The notes beneath the pieces were generated by a model, which did no database searches, had not been told where the DNA came from, and worked only from the letters and a program-made list of their open reading frames with translations. 34,988 bases of DNA from assembly GCA_013314815.1 (NCBI GenBank), contig JABUEY010000031.1, positions 1 to 34,988 of the forward strand, in the 5' to 3' direction. Both the position numbers and the translations under genes were made by a program. The stretch comes from Syntrophobacteraceae bacterium (GTDB lineage: Bacteria > Desulfobacterota > Syntrophobacteria > Syntrophobacterales > Syntrophobacteraceae). Shown piece by piece: positions 1 to 6,143 of this stretch; within the stretch, counting starts at the first letter, position 1, and every line of letters starts with the position of its first letter.

Positions 1-419
1 AAGCATCTTGCAGACTTCTCCTCGCCTGCCGGTGGTTGGATTTGGCAATCAACCAACTCGCCCTTGGGCATCTGGTGGATAGCCGTCGCGCCAACTCGAA
101 TGTTATAAATCGATACGACACGGTCTCCTTCGCGGGAATGACGGTGTGGTATTGGACGGAATGACGTTATGATCTTCGCAGGAATGGCGTCGGGATGTCA
201 TCGGTCCTTTGCATGAAAAGCACTGGAGACATGAAAAGCCACTGGAGGCACTCCTTTGCTGGACGAACCAAGAATCAACTCGAAGGCCTTGACTCCCGCC
301 ACCCTGTTTGCGGATGGATCAGTTTGGCAGGTTCGATACGGGTGACTCTTCAACAGCAATATTCAAATCCCGGCGAGATGCTCGCACATCTATGCCTTCA
401 AAGGAGATGCCTTCACGCC
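1..419. other. Intergenic, no gene seen; degenerate repeat remnants
   Basis: No convincing coding region is seen before the methyltransferase. A short imperfect hairpin (TGGTTG at 33-38, CAACCA at 50-55) is present. At 129-143 and 175-189 there are two near-identical 15-mers (TTCGCGGGAATGACG and TTCGCAGGAATGGCG), with a third partial copy (GGAATGACG) at 158-166. They look like worn copies of a dispersed 'TTCGCGGGAATGACG' type element. The methyltransferase frame stays open back to about 195, but that part reads as non-coding. Confidence 0.5.
129..189. repeat. Degenerate short direct repeats
   Basis: TTCGCGGGAATGACG at 129-143 recurs with two changes at 175-189, 46 bp later, and GGAATGACG recurs at 158-166. 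Similar GGGAATGACG-containing short palindromic repeats are common between genes in many proteobacteria, but a genome-wide count was not possible here, so the family assignment is inference. Confidence 0.35.
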
Positions 420-1241
420 ATGCAAGAGATCGATTACCTCATGGAAAGCGCCGAGGAGGTGCTTCGGCTGGATGTAAAGACGGAAAGCACCGTTGTCGAG
501 GGCCAGGCATTGTGGGCCGGGATCAGGCCGGGCATGAGCGTTGCCGACATCGGGTTCGGTTCGGGGAAGACATCCGCCATCCTTCACTCCCTGGTACAGC
601 CCGGCGGGTCGGTGCTGGGAGTGGACGGTTCGGGGGAAAGGACCGCTTATGCAACCTCCCGGTACGGAGACCGTGGAATTCGATTCGTTTCCAGGGATAT
701 TCGGAACTCCCTCGATGACCTCGGCCGGTTTGACTTTGTGTGGGTAAGGTTCGTTCTCGAATATTATCGGGCCGAATGCATTGAAATCGTTCAAAACCTA
801 TCCCGGATCGTCAAGCCGGGGGGCATTCTCTGCCTGATCGACCTGGACCATAACAGCCTCAATCATTTCAGAATCCCTCAAAAGCTGGAGGAGACTCTGA
901 ACCGGATCATCGAAAGGCTTCAAAGCCGGCACAACTTCGACCCCTATGCCGGAAGAAAGCTGTACTCCTGCCTGTACGACCTCGGCTACCAGGACATCGA
1001 CGTCTCGGTTTCGGCCCATCACCTGATATTCGGCGAATTGCAGAAAAAGGACGCGTTCAACTGGATGAAAAAGATCGAGGTGATTGTCAGCAGGATGAAC
1101 GATCTCTTCGACGAGTACGACGACGGATTCGAGGGGTTTGTTCGGGAGTTCGAGGCGTTTTTTTCGGATCCGGGCCGGTTCACCTATACGCCCGTCATCT
1201 GCTGCCGCGGGCGAAGACCCGATTCGGGAATTCAGGGCTGA
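420..1241 (+). CDS. Class I SAM-dependent methyltransferase
   Basis: A 273-residue Rossmann-fold methyltransferase. Motif I (VADIGFGSGKTS, residues 41-52) is the glycine-rich SAM loop. VDGS at 68-71 supplies the acidic residue that binds the ribose, and a post-motif KPGG lies near 133, as in UbiE-like Methyltransf_25/31 proteins. The C-terminal third is helical and acidic, of unknown role. The substrate cannot be told. ATG 420 is chosen because AAGGAG lies at 401-406 and homology-like sequence begins there; the frame is open further upstream to 195 without conserved features. The gene is convergent with the HD-GYP gene, and the two 3' ends overlap by 10 bp (1232-1241), so no room exists for a terminator between them. 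A small-molecule or lipid methyltransferase is as likely as a signalling one. Confidence 0.8.
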   Translation: MQEIDYLMESAEEVLRLDVKTESTVVEGQALWAGIRPGMSVADIGFGSGKTSAILHSLVQPGGSVLGVDGSGERTAYATSRYGDRGIRFVSRDIRNSLDDLGRFDFVWVRFVLEYYRAECIEIVQNLSRIVKPGGILCLIDLDHNSLNHFRIPQKLEETLNRIIERLQSRHNFDPYAGRKLYSCLYDLGYQDIDVSVSAHHLIFGELQKKDAFNWMKKIEVIVSRMNDLFDEYDDGFEGFVREFEAFFSDPGRFTYTPVICCRGRRPDSGIQG

Positions 1242-3169
1242 GGCTTTCCGTCGCCGCTCTTCAAACCTTCGAGGTAGCGGAAGAAGGCGTCGACGACGCT
1301 GCTGTCGAAGTGCTTTCCTCTTTGGGAGTCAATGATATCGAGAGCCTCCTGCACGGGCATGGGTCCCCTGTAGTGTCGCCTGGATGTCAGGGCCTCGAAA
1401 ACGTCCGCAACGGCGATGATTCGAGCTCCAAGCGGGATTTCATCGCCCTTGAGTCCCAGCGGGTATCCCGTTCCGTCGACCTTTTCATGGTGAGATCCCG
1501 CGATCTCGGGCACCTCTTTGTAGAATCCGTCGAAATTCACCTGCTTGAGGATCTCCCGGGTTTTTTCGGCATGCGTTTCGATTTCGAAGCGTTCCTCGGC
1601 GGTGAGCACCCCGTTTTTCTTCAGTATGGAATCCCTTATCCCGATCTTGCCGTAATCGTGCAAAAGGGACGCCACCCGGACCATTTCACAGTAGTCCCTG
1701 GACATGCCCATCTCCCGGCAGATCCCCAACGCGTACTCGGTGACCCTGGTGGAGTGCCCCGCCGTGAGGGGGTCCCGGGCATCGATACTTGCCGCGAGAG
1801 TCTGGAGCAGGGATTTGAACTGGCTGATCTTCGCTTCGATCAGCATGGCATTGTGCATGCTGATGCCGATTTCCTGGGTGACCCCCATGAGCAGGCTGAT
1901 GTCTCTTTGCAGCAACGGTCTCTTGGTCGTCAGGTTATCTACCGCAAGCAGCCCCAGGGATTCCCCTTCGTAGACGATGGGGCAGCAGATAAATGACCTG
2001 GACCCGATCTTTTTTGCGAATTCGACACTTCGGGGAGACAGTTCACCGAGGATCTCATCCAGATCGTTGATCAGGAAAGGCTTCTGCTGCCGCACGCACA
2101 CCACAAAAACCCCTTTCGAGTCATGCCTGTCCAGGCGAAAGCTCGACTCCTGGAACCGCCTTTCCTGATCCCTGCTGTACCCGTACCCTGTCTTATACTC
2201 CAGCCTGGTCCGGTCTTCGTTCACCAGCAGTATCATCCCCCTGTCGAAATCCAGGCGCTTGCTCAAACTCTCTATCACTCCGCTCAAGATCCCGTCCACC
2301 TCCATCTGCTTGCCAAGAGCCTGCCCCAGTTCACTGATGAATCGAGCATTATTGTAGTTGAAGTTGATTTGATCCAAAAGGTTTTCGTTGGATTCTCTCA
2401 AGTTGGACAGCGCGGCATTCATTTCCCTGAAATGGTGCCGGCTGGAATAGATGTCGATCAGCAGGACGAGAAGTACTCCGGCGAGCCCGTAAAACCCCAG
2501 TTCCACCGGATTCAGCGTCGGAAGAAGGACAGCCGAAAGGGCAGCCAGCATCAATGCCGCATAATTCCTGACCTGTCTCCAGAATGCCGAACGGGACTCC
2601 TGCCAGGACACGATGTACCGGCACACCTTTCCGCCCTTGAAAAGGCATTCGGGGTGCTCGATCACGGGCAGTCTGTACTTAAAAACCAGGGATACCGCAT
2701 CGAGATATCCGAGCCGGTTCTCGCACTGATAGGGTTTTTCCTCGGCTCCTTCGACGGGGGTAGCCGTAATCTCGACGGAATTCCGCCCTATCCTGGAGGC
2801 TTCGACAAGGGAGGACCTGGTGAAATTGGGAGACGCTCTGCCGATAATCTGGTATGCGGTAGCCGGGTCCACGTGACTCAGAATGTACTGTCTCATCACC
2901 CCGATCGAATCGGGGGATGCCGCGAACCGGCCGGCTTCCCTGGCGATATTGGGATTTCCGGTAAGTGTGAGCAGCCTTTCATAAAAGAGATCGGCTTGTT
3001 CCTGGGTAAACCAGTGCCCCTCGTCTTCCACCTGGTAGAGTTCCATCCCGGCGTGACTCAACAGTTCGGCACTGTTTATATAGGGATAACGCTCCCGGAT
3101 CAGCTTTAAATACGTGTTGAATATCCTGCTGTTGTAGAAATGCTGATCGTCCGAACCCGGTGAATTCAT
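1232..3169 (-). CDS. Membrane V4R-like/GAF/HD-GYP c-di-GMP phosphodiesterase
   Basis: A 645-residue multidomain signalling protein predicted to degrade cyclic di-GMP. Residues 10-190 form a sensor region ending in an EHPEC...G...CRYIVSW pattern (C174, C183) that recalls the 4-vinyl-reductase/heme-NO-binding fold; that assignment is tentative. Two hydrophobic segments (about 204-218 and 225-240) suggest a membrane hairpin. A coiled linker leads to a GAF domain (about 285-440). The C-terminal HD-GYP domain (455-635) keeps its metal and signature residues: H472, HDYGKIG at 504-510, H533, HH at 560-561, then DGTGYP at 565-570 and the following AVAD motif. It appears catalytically competent. Its ATG lies 2 nt after the stop of the upstream PilZ-domain gene, so the two are probably co-transcribed and translationally coupled. 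The signal sensed is unknown. Confidence 0.85.
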   Translation of the reverse strand: MNSPGSDDQHFYNSRIFNTYLKLIRERYPYINSAELLSHAGMELYQVEDEGHWFTQEQADLFYERLLTLTGNPNIAREAGRFAASPDSIGVMRQYILSHVDPATAYQIIGRASPNFTRSSLVEASRIGRNSVEITATPVEGAEEKPYQCENRLGYLDAVSLVFKYRLPVIEHPECLFKGGKVCRYIVSWQESRSAFWRQVRNYAALMLAALSAVLLPTLNPVELGFYGLAGVLLVLLIDIYSSRHHFREMNAALSNLRESNENLLDQINFNYNNARFISELGQALGKQMEVDGILSGVIESLSKRLDFDRGMILLVNEDRTRLEYKTGYGYSRDQERRFQESSFRLDRHDSKGVFVVCVRQQKPFLINDLDEILGELSPRSVEFAKKIGSRSFICCPIVYEGESLGLLAVDNLTTKRPLLQRDISLLMGVTQEIGISMHNAMLIEAKISQFKSLLQTLAASIDARDPLTAGHSTRVTEYALGICREMGMSRDYCEMVRVASLLHDYGKIGIRDSILKKNGVLTAEERFEIETHAEKTREILKQVNFDGFYKEVPEIAGSHHEKVDGTGYPLGLKGDEIPLGARIIAVADVFEALTSRRHYRGPMPVQEALDIIDSQRGKHFDSSVVDAFFRYLEGLKSGDGKPQP

Positions 3170-3171
3170 GT

Positions 3172-6069
3172 TCAGCTTTCCGCCGGCTGAGCAGACCCGT
3201 CACCGGGTTTCCGGCGTGAGCGGCTCAGGAGAGATTCCATGTATTGAAAGTACCGATCACTGTAGAGGGTGTTGAAAGCCCAGAGTCGATAGATTTTATC
3301 ATAAGCCAGCGACTGGCTTTCAGCATAACGGACAGGATAAAGGAGAACGGGGATATCTTCGCTGCCGTAGCATTGAATCTTTCGTTTCGCCGCGAACAAC
3401 GCGGGGAGAAGTTCCCGGGCGGGAAAGTCTTCGCCGTCCAGCACGATGACGTGCATGCAGTTGGTCAGGTTCGATAGGTTGAGGCCAATGTCCGATGCGG
3501 TCATCAGAACAACTGCCCTGAGCCTGCCCGCCTTCCTGACGGACAGCACCTTCCGCATCCTCGTAAACCCCGCCCTTCGGTACTCCGCAGTCAACGTATC
3601 CACATTCAGCATATCCGGCTTCAGATCCAGCGCGTGGAACAGCAGGGCGGTTTCACTTCCGAAGCAGCTCTCCAGCTCGATCAGATCCCTGCCGGAGCTT
3701 TCGGCGACCTCGATTTCCAGCTCGATATCCGGGTTGTCCCAACTTTCCGGTGACGAACCATCCGGGAGGTGAAAATAAGCGAACGGGCTGACGGATGCCC
3801 CTTCAGGGTCGTCCAGGTGCCTGGCGAATCCGCCGAACACCCGGTCGGGAAACCTGTTCTCGGGCCTGAAATAGGAGACGATAAAGTGCATATGAGTCGA
3901 ATAGAGACGGGCAAAGTCATTGACGTAGCGGCCTATCTGTTCGAGCACCACGATTCCCGACTTCCTGAATCCTGAACCCGTAGCCGCATGATGATGAAAC
4001 AGCCACGTATTTTCGTGGAATCGAACCATGGATATATGCCCGGATATCCTCCCTTTTTCCTGGTATATGAAATGCCTGGCAATCTCGGGGCTCTCGATGT
4101 AAAGCTTCTCATACGTCCTTTTCAGTCTTTCCTTCTTGTCATGGATCAATGCATACTTCTTGGGATAAAAGAACCCGGTTTCAAAAAAGAACCTCCACAG
4201 TTGATCCATATCGACCCGGTTGCATACGAAAGATCTATCATCCGCCAGACGATGCAGTACGCTTGAAAGCCTCACCTGGTCCTTCATGTCCATATCCAGG
4301 ACCGCGACTCCACACTTTACGTAACGGCCGTCTTCGCACTGCTCCACCGGATTTCTGTACACGACCTGGGCCTTGCACCTGACCCTGCAGCCGCTTGCAA
4401 TCTCGATTTCCGCCTCGGGCAGGATAAGACCCGTCATCAACAGCGAATGACCATAGTATTCGACGGCGGAAAACCCTGAGCCGGAGATGTCGTCGAGTTC
4501 CAGGCTGACAAGACCGGCCGTAAGGGGATGTCTAAAAACGAGCGAAGGGGAAGGAACGACTTTGTGCCTCCTGCTGCGGAATTCTTTGGGCCTGAACCTG
4601 TGGATCCTGTCCTTGACGGGCCTGAGCGCAAAGGCTCTCGCATGCTGTCCGTGACCCTGCCGAATAATTTCACATTCACCCGAGAACACAATGCCTTGTG
4701 CACTTCGAAACAGCACGGTCACCGCAGCATTCGGGTTGACCCAGAGGAACGACTGAGGCGGTTCGGCGACAACCTCGATGCGGAATGACACCCCGCTGTA
4801 CTCGACAAGAACCCCTTTAAAAACCACACCTTCCTGGATCAGTTCCGCCTCTATGTCTCTGCAGCGGTGTCTTTCCACACTTCGAAGGCTGATCCTGTAA
4901 CCTTCCCCGGGAAGAGTGAAGCTCATGCAGCCTTGGGCTTCCGACTTCACAGGTTCAGGCATGACCAGGATGACGTCGCATCCGTCGGCAAAAAGGAAAT
5001 GCGCGAACTCGTAAGACAGGTCCTCGATGGCGCCTTCACTCTTGCCAATCAGGATGCAATCCAGCCTCTCGCCCATACAGGGTCGAGGTCTCGCCTGCAC
5101 GGAAAGGATCGAATGGTATTTCTTGTGCCGGAAATTGAGGAGAATGCTTTCGTCCTGGAAATGCACGTAATTGAGTGCGTTGATCAGATCCTTCCTGGTT
5201 ATCTTCTTATGCGATTCAATCCCTTCTTGCAGCCTTCGGTTTTGAAACAAGTTGAAGGCCCTGCGCAAGGCCGTTTTCTGCTGGATATCTCGATCGGAGC
5301 AATCTGGAAGTGCAGTCGAAATCAACGTGTCAGGGAGCGGGGATGAGCGGGGCGTGGAAGATCCAAGCGAACCCGCGGCCGCATCGACATGATGCCGAGC
5401 GGGCATCCGGCCCCCAAAATCATCGGGCGGGCGGGCGCATCGAGGCGGTTCATTTGCCGGCTTTCCCTTTGCCAGAATGGTCTCGACCAGCCGGGAGCAG
5501 ATCGAAGAACTGTCTTCTCTCGCAGTGACTGTTCCCGAGGGCAGCAAACCGGGGCTGGTCAGGTATTCGATCAGGATATTCCCCAGTGGATAAGGGGTTC
5601 CACGGCAGTTGCCGGTCAGATCGAGAAGCACCTCTCCGCCGGACTTATAGACGATCCCCTGAAAAAGAACCCGCTCGAACCCTTCCGTGCTCGCGGCGGA
5701 AATGAGCCTGCGAAGATCGCTGCACTTGTCTTTCAGCCGGACGAAAAGGTTCCGCGCGTCATCATCGCTGAAAGAACAGTGATCCTGAAACTGCGGCTCC
5801 TCCAGGTGTGGATCGGCATCGGCGAATTCGATCAGGTAAACACAGTGAGGAGTAACAACCAGGACATCGGCCTTCAAGACATGAGTGCCTTCGGGATCCT
5901 GGAATGCGATGTCCGGAATGACCAGGTACTCCGAGTCGAGGTTCAGGAATCGCTCCCCGAAACGGACTGCGGATGCCGACGGCAGGTTGTCCAGCAGAAA
6001 CTGAACAAGCCTGCGCCTGTTTCTGCTCTGCGGCAGATCACCCCCTGGAGGCAGCATCAGTTTCGCCAT
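3172..6069 (-). CDS. Large NERD-like / PilZ / GNAT-like fusion protein
   Basis: A 965-residue protein from ATG 6069 (AAGGGA, 5-nt spacing); a GTG at 6111 is an alternative start. The N-terminal 60-120 region resembles a NERD/restriction-like nuclease core (ADVLVV, then YLIEFADA), but the usual ExK lysine is absent, so nuclease activity is doubtful. A low-complexity linker follows (about 200-260). Residues 290-480 look like a YcgR-N/PilZ-N-type beta region. Residues 494-606 look like PilZ, with a basic RPKEFRSRRHK stretch and DISGSG at 527-532. The strict RxxxR spacing of c-di-GMP-binding PilZ domains is not met, so ligand binding is uncertain. Residues 626-900 resemble one or two GNAT-like acyltransferase modules (EKGRISGHISMVRF and downstream). 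It immediately precedes an HD-GYP phosphodiesterase, which supports a c-di-GMP-linked role. No signal peptide is seen. The exact function is unknown. Confidence 0.7.
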   Translation of the reverse strand: MAKLMLPPGGDLPQSRNRRRLVQFLLDNLPSASAVRFGERFLNLDSEYLVIPDIAFQDPEGTHVLKADVLVVTPHCVYLIEFADADPHLEEPQFQDHCSFSDDDARNLFVRLKDKCSDLRRLISAASTEGFERVLFQGIVYKSGGEVLLDLTGNCRGTPYPLGNILIEYLTSPGLLPSGTVTAREDSSSICSRLVETILAKGKPANEPPRCARPPDDFGGRMPARHHVDAAAGSLGSSTPRSSPLPDTLISTALPDCSDRDIQQKTALRRAFNLFQNRRLQEGIESHKKITRKDLINALNYVHFQDESILLNFRHKKYHSILSVQARPRPCMGERLDCILIGKSEGAIEDLSYEFAHFLFADGCDVILVMPEPVKSEAQGCMSFTLPGEGYRISLRSVERHRCRDIEAELIQEGVVFKGVLVEYSGVSFRIEVVAEPPQSFLWVNPNAAVTVLFRSAQGIVFSGECEIIRQGHGQHARAFALRPVKDRIHRFRPKEFRSRRHKVVPSPSLVFRHPLTAGLVSLELDDISGSGFSAVEYYGHSLLMTGLILPEAEIEIASGCRVRCKAQVVYRNPVEQCEDGRYVKCGVAVLDMDMKDQVRLSSVLHRLADDRSFVCNRVDMDQLWRFFFETGFFYPKKYALIHDKKERLKRTYEKLYIESPEIARHFIYQEKGRISGHISMVRFHENTWLFHHHAATGSGFRKSGIVVLEQIGRYVNDFARLYSTHMHFIVSYFRPENRFPDRVFGGFARHLDDPEGASVSPFAYFHLPDGSSPESWDNPDIELEIEVAESSGRDLIELESCFGSETALLFHALDLKPDMLNVDTLTAEYRRAGFTRMRKVLSVRKAGRLRAVVLMTASDIGLNLSNLTNCMHVIVLDGEDFPARELLPALFAAKRKIQCYGSEDIPVLLYPVRYAESQSLAYDKIYRLWAFNTLYSDRYFQYMESLLSRSRRKPGDGSAQPAES

Positions 6070-6083
6070 GGCAATCCCTTCGG

Positions 6084-6143
6084 CTATGGTGATCGATCCC
6101 CTGTACGGCACATCCGGTCAATCGGCCGAATATCCTGCATCAT
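6084..6143 (-). CDS. Possible 19-residue leader ORF with a strong SD
   Basis: ATG 6143 is preceded by AAGGGGGTGA (6156-6147), an almost perfect anti-16S match with ideal spacing, better than that of the large gene downstream. The reading frame gives only 19 residues, starting MMQDIRPIDRMC, and stops 14 nt before ATG 6069 of the PilZ-domain gene. It could be a leader peptide that couples or attenuates translation, or the true start of the large gene broken by an indel. However, the frame of the large gene has a TGA a few codons upstream of its GTG. No homology is recognised. Confidence 0.3.
   Translation of the reverse strand: MMQDIRPIDRMCRTGDRSP

Follow-up and report, generated by a model that had tools for sequence, protein, structure and literature searches.

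PilZ and GNAT domains have been found together in one chain before. PixB of M. xanthus (MXAN_2604) has two PilZ domains and a C-terminal GNAT domain, binds cyclic di-GMP (c-di-GMP) in vitro and controls motility and development, and its acetyltransferase domain is essential for function (PMC8316039). As for sensing, the H-NOX protein of S. oneidensis holds zinc through C139, H161, C164 and C172, with a spacing of 22-3-8 residues (PMC7108781), and for V4R domains hydrophobic ligands have been proposed (PMC2253512). In the PhcB/PhcS system of Ralstonia, enzyme-made, methylated fatty signals are read by a membrane kinase (PMC8578825). Here we discuss a stretch of 34,988 nucleotides (nt) from a Syntrophobacteraceae bacterium (contig JABUEY010000031.1; hereafter the window), in which a PilZ/GNAT protein adjoins a membrane sensor with an HD-GYP output and an S-adenosylmethionine (SAM)-dependent methyltransferase. 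The core of the PilZ/GNAT protein, the sensor and the methyltransferase form a conserved three-gene unit in at least two phyla. The features of the window, with the evidence for each in brackets, are as follows.

3172-6069, minus strand: PilZ/tandem-GNAT protein of 965 residues, the core enzyme plus a NERD-like appendage (open reading frame, relatives, model, fold match)
5440-6069, minus strand: NERD-like stretch, residues 1-210, a relative of the MAD6 N terminus with the ExK lysine lost (EFA) (Pfam, NCBIfam, alignment; low-confidence model)
5221-5439, minus strand: linker, residues 211-283, where the homologue in genome G004 has a degenerate Ser/Thr kinase (alignment)
4885-5220, minus strand: YcgR-N-like domain, residues 284-395 (model against 5y6h, Z 10.9)
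4609-4884, minus strand: first PilZ domain, residues 396-487 (fold match, motif conservation)
4252-4587, minus strand: second PilZ domain, residues 495-606, reaching up to about 614 (5ked, MrkH, Z 13.0; 4xrn, Z 12.7)
3766-4242, minus strand: first GNAT repeat, residues 610-768, with conserved H693 and YFRPENxFP (fold match, conservation)
3250-3714, minus strand: second GNAT repeat, residues 786-940 (fold match)
1232-3169, minus strand: membrane sensor with HD-GYP output, 645 residues (open reading frame, Pfam, model, fold match)
2600-3136, minus strand: H-NOX/V4R-fold sensor domain, residues 12-190, with C149, H172, C175 and C183 (3tfd, Z 16.6; alignment)
2450-2578, minus strand: hydrophobic helical hairpin, residues 198-240 (sequence and model helices)
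1823-2383, minus strand: GAF domain, residues 263-449 (PF01590, 53.1 bits; 3oov, Z 20.0)
1268-1804, minus strand: HD-GYP domain, residues 456-634, with intact motifs (PF13487, 151.7 bits; 9rbz, Z 25.4)
195-1241, plus strand: SAM-dependent methyltransferase, convergent with the pair (PF08241, 49.5 bits; alignment of 36 relatives; co-occurrence)

Both reading frames of the pair lie at the coordinates and on the strand given in the first-pass annotation, which was made from the letters of the window. In the window's listing of open reading frames, the 965-residue frame runs from an ATG at 6069 to 3172, with an in-frame GTG at 6111 as an alternative start (979 residues), and the 645-residue frame (1232-3169) starts 2 nt past its end. 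The convergent methyltransferase at 195-1241 and the YcgR-N domain at residues 284-395 had been overlooked. The true start of the methyltransferase is uncertain, because homology begins near 423.

Linkage was followed in 395 genomes of the window's phylum and in 118 Nitrospirota genomes, and 52 loci were inspected; the reading-frame calls behind the neighbour clustering and the locus counts were mechanical, and contig ends truncate several of the loci. That the two genes of the pair stay together is borne out in relatives: a sensor gene follows the core gene directly, on the same strand and within 600 nt, in 30 of the 52 loci, and in seven further loci it lies at another place, sometimes upstream or inverted. 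At four loci without a sensor beside the core (L013, L014, L018 and L019), each genome has one sensor gene elsewhere. The core is present in 45 of the 395 genomes, the sensor in 50 and both in 37; Fisher's test was applied to this co-occurrence with kinship between the genomes ignored. Four of the Nitrospirota genomes have the core, and three Nitrospirota loci repeat the order and orientation of the window, i.e., core, sensor-GAF-HD-GYP and convergent methyltransferase. Distance matrices of the core, sensor and methyltransferase segments correlate at 0.60-0.83, values in which shared ancestry and co-evolution are not separated.

The methyltransferase emerged as the third gene of the unit from clustering of the core's neighbours and is found in 37 of the 52 loci. 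Its subfamily is nearly confined to genomes with the core enzyme: it occurs in 36 of the 395 genomes, 34 of which carry the core, and in the other two (G296 and G297) the sensor is present and a piece of the unit lies at a contig end. Counted by genus, the core is found in 24 of the 25 genera with the methyltransferase, and in 32 of all 246 genera. In the open-access papers searched, the three-gene unit is nowhere described. The domain combination of the enzyme, not recognised as a described system in the first-pass annotation, has a precedent in PixB (PMC8316039).

Genome searches with the 965-residue protein as query recovered the core (residues ~285-950) as a stand-alone protein of ~690 residues in many Desulfobacterota genomes, as well as in one Nitrospirota metagenome-assembled genome and one such genome named Geobacter sp. 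The core alignment of 45 sequences was the basis of the structure model, in which residues 285-957 mostly have a predicted local distance difference test (pLDDT) score above 85, and residues 1-257 largely lie below 50. Residues 284-940 are thus confidently modelled as an enzyme of YcgR-N, PilZ, PilZ and tandem GNAT domains. The window's 965-residue protein itself has no PilZ or GNAT match in Pfam, and no similar chain turned up when the PDB was searched by sequence, whether with the core alone or with a profile of it. Fold searches with the model recover both domain types, as the first-pass annotation had predicted; solved PilZ structures align with the model at Z 12-13, and Pfam finds PilZ in 12 of 14 relatives. 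For the tandem GNAT part (607-940), the best structural match of the model is HisAT/NAT16 (Z 14.0, root mean square deviation 4.5 over 272 residues).

The irregular RxxxR spacing noted earlier applies to one of the two PilZ domains. In the first, the canonical R396xxxR400 is kept in 44 of 44 sequences and the second motif is degenerate; the second domain has R498xxR501, RxxR and not RxxxR, together with D527xS529xxG532, the glycine of which is kept in 45 of 45. The GNAT repeats have conserved residues of their own, including H693 and the YFRPENxFP stretch. PixB, the nearest characterised protein, resembles the core in carrying a pair of PilZ domains and a GNAT domain on a single chain. The arginine motifs of its PilZ domains are 210 residues apart (R121 and R331) vs 102 in the core, and RxxxR is reported in both of its PilZ domains (PixB being compared by description only). 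The PixB text consulted describes no H-NOX/V4R-type sensor or methyltransferase alongside it.

The partner protein was described earlier as V4R-like, which is right in kind: its residues 12-190 are predicted to adopt an H-NOX/V4R-type fold. The model matches Nostoc H-NOX (3tfd) over 169 residues, and the fold is common to the Shewanella and Vibrio H-NOX sensors (Z 16.6-15.9). C149, H172, C175 and C183 are invariant in the sensor alignment with a spacing of 23-3-8, and since this spacing agrees within one residue with that of the S. oneidensis zinc ligands, we regard the quartet as a putative zinc-type site. Where the heme ligand would lie (a position that is inferred, since aligning sensor and H-NOX profiles gave too weak a result to place the heme histidine), no histidine is conserved; the conserved histidines of the sensor alignment are those at 52, 63, 172 and 177. 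This point is drawn from the conservation in the region and not from a residue-level structural alignment. PF07700, the heme H-NOX family, gives no match in the sensor. By the residues compared, the sensor domain is H-NOX-like in its predicted fold and candidate zinc site and is not a heme H-NOX, and sensing of nitric oxide (NO) by heme was rejected because a conserved proximal histidine is missing.

Among 35 sensor relatives, Pfam gives weak matches to Arabinose_bd (PF12625; 25 of 35) and V4R (PF02830; 19 of 35, best E 7e-6); the window's sensor matches PF12625 only, below threshold. A PDB search with the single sensor sequence gave chance matches only. Unlike the Shewanella and Vibrio proteins, the sensor domain is fused through the hairpin and a GAF domain to an HD-GYP, kinase or cyclase module. 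Judged from the sequence and the model helices, the hairpin probably forms two transmembrane helices with both ends in the cytoplasm. The HD-GYP domain of the window had been called apparently active, and the HD, HHE and GYP residues are indeed all present, consistent with a working phosphodiesterase. H-NOX/V4R-fold sensors with histidine kinase or HD-GYP outputs also occur unlinked to the core (L129-L133, L125, L126 and L128).

The output module changes from locus to locus. Of the full-length sensors that neighbour the core, 18 end in HD-GYP and one in a class III cyclase; another 17 have a histidine kinase at this place, in most cases together with a receiver or Hpt domain. Because the output is exchanged while the sensor domain stays constant, it is the enzyme and the sensor domain that are linked by conservation. 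A constant sensor with swapped outputs resembles a natural experiment, the outcome of which suggests that the conserved link lies in the ligand of the sensor and not in c-di-GMP turnover, and the adjoining enzyme pair is the obvious candidate for the source of that ligand.

From the observed folds, motif conservation, linkage and output swaps, we tentatively favor a reading that we would place a little short of probable, in which the unit both makes and reads a small hydrophobic signal. c-di-GMP, acting through the PilZ half, would gate the core enzyme; the GNAT part would acylate, and the methyltransferase would methylate, a small hydrophobic or lipid-like metabolite, which the sensor pocket would then read, driving the output. 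In the window, the HD-GYP output would act back on c-di-GMP and so complete a feedback loop, while elsewhere the sensor would drive a histidine kinase or nucleotide cyclase. The NERD stretch would be a decayed fusion and dispensable. The role given to the sensor is supported by the hydrophobic ligands proposed for V4R domains (PMC2253512). FadL-family porins beside the unit are also counted in favor of this reading: a gene for such an outer membrane protein lies at L022, L059, L060, L061, L062, L084, L094 and L124, mostly just past the methyltransferase and in several families as well as Nitrospirota. The window's contig has the methyltransferase only 195 bases in from its first base, which leaves no room for a FadL neighbour, and the two FadL genes of this genome lie inside other contigs. 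Ralstonia PhcB/PhcS is alike in the proposed logic only, a fatty signal made with a methyltransferase and read by a membrane sensor kinase (PMC8578825); it differs in having no GNAT, no PilZ and another sensor. That Desulfobacterota and Nitrospirota have in this unit a hitherto unknown kind of chemical signalling, with an H-NOX/V4R-fold receptor and exchanged outputs, is a further claim and a doubtful one. The unit itself brings together three little-understood parts in mostly anaerobic lineages: an enzyme with PilZ and GNAT domains, an H-NOX/V4R-fold sensor without heme and a methyltransferase subfamily private to it.

Several observations weigh against a signal made and read within the unit. 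The methyltransferase falls below threshold in 11 of the 45 core genomes, some of which are fragmentary. The sensor family occurs without the core in 13 genomes, with about eight strong matches, the weakest (five genomes, ~1e-16 to 1e-21) being probably other families, and extra unlinked copies of the sensor exist. The co-occurrence counts ignore phylogeny. The canonical R/QxxGxG/A acyl-CoA motif was not found in the GNAT repeats, with only G705, in the first repeat, kept at the expected place. The substrate, product and ligand, all of them inferred, may be other than we suppose, and the zinc-type site would fit redox sensing equally well by analogy (PMC7108781).

The last point leads to the alternative that survives best, possible in our view although rather unlikely, in which the sensor detects redox change or NO through a zinc-thiolate site and the core is a c-di-GMP-gated acyltransferase acting on the envelope or on protein. 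The core, being PixB- or HfsK-like, would acylate a protein, polysaccharide or lipid, the methyltransferase would act on the same substrate, and the core would not be the source of the sensor's ligand; oxidants would be sensed in mostly anaerobic lineages, and the output would alter c-di-GMP or phosphorylation. HfsK, the subject of a Caulobacter paper, is what we take to be a suitable comparison for the core as an effector. The invariant Cys/His quartet matches the S. oneidensis zinc ligands, V. cholerae H-NOX without heme is a redox sensor through its zinc site (PMC7108781), and PixB, a PilZ-PilZ-GNAT protein, controls motility and development (PMC8316039). Moreover, phosphoethanolamine N-methyltransferases are among the best PDB matches of the methyltransferase, which fits lipid headgroup chemistry. 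However, zinc may have no more than a structural role in V4R-type domains, and a redox sensor leaves it unexplained why the sensor domain and a private methyltransferase are retained amid changing outputs.

A closed c-di-GMP loop, in which the PilZ protein reads c-di-GMP, the GNAT part acylates or localises a target, the HD-GYP enzyme resets the signal and the sensor sets the gain, appears improbable. In outline it was the mechanism suggested in the first-pass annotation, and it draws on the conserved PilZ motifs, on the intact HD-GYP proteins tightly paired with the core at 18 loci, among them that of the window and some in Nitrospirota, and on an extra C-terminal PilZ-like region in two of these HD-GYP partners. 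As a general principle it does not hold: about half of the partners lack the resetting enzyme, its place being taken by a histidine kinase in 17 and by a class III cyclase in one, and reading by PilZ with resetting by HD-GYP is therefore not the conserved logic. The loop also leaves the methyltransferase unexplained.

The NERD-like N terminus that the first-pass annotation joined to the PilZ and GNAT domains in one giant protein is real and stands outside the conserved architecture, being present in two genomes only. Its Pfam match (PF08378) is below threshold (16 vs 22.1 bits), and NCBIfam relates residues 1-201 to MAD6 of the methylation-associated defence system, MADS (NF047741; E 9e-7, 27.7 bits), short of the curated cut-off of 460. 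The missing ExK lysine was read correctly at the outset: the site is EFA in the window, EIK in MAD6 and DIK in the G004 homologue. The kinase domain of MAD6 is absent from the window's protein by Pfam and alignment. In G004, a genome belonging to the window's family, a fusion joins the core to a MAD6-type NERD domain and a degenerate kinase with HGE for HRD, its aspartate thus absent (L022:7634-11278), and the fusion matches MAD6 over 493 residues (264.6 bits, E 1.8e-78), also below the cut-off. Since this N terminus is absent from the other relatives that were inspected, it reads as a decaying fusion outside the conserved mechanism. The window's stretch would be an appendage specific to its lineage, namely the front of a MAD6-type defence kinase with the ExK lysine and kinase lost, and the G004 fusion, from its sequence, looks like the front end of a defence protein that a signalling enzyme has captured. 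An active NERD nuclease was rejected on the lost lysine and the absence of the stretch from relatives, and a defence role on the MAD6 cut-off. It is thus very improbable that the 965-residue protein is a MADS/BREX-type defence component acting through its NERD part, as the MAD6 matches might suggest: both scores fall short of 460 bits, the window's protein has no kinase and the kinase of G004 has no HRD, the lysine is lost, nearly all relatives lack NERD and no further defence gene was seen next to the window's pair.

Another genome of the window's family, G010, has a MAD6 protein that passes the cut-off (L026:6685-10884; 602.7 vs 460 bits) with HRD present, composed of NERD, two kinase-like regions and a further C-terminal part. 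It sits next to apparent restriction-modification genes, its neighbours resembling genes for a DNA methyltransferase and a specificity subunit, with one further protein gene, and the locus is probably a MADS defence locus. Genes for radical SAM/B12-binding proteins lie near the unit at L015, L025, L069 and L080, that at L015 being confirmed by Pfam. Finally, the core gene at L013:9593 (CP070694.1) has an in-frame TAG where relatives have leucine, and the match resumes past the TAG; a sequencing error, a pseudogene or TAG read-through may account for it.

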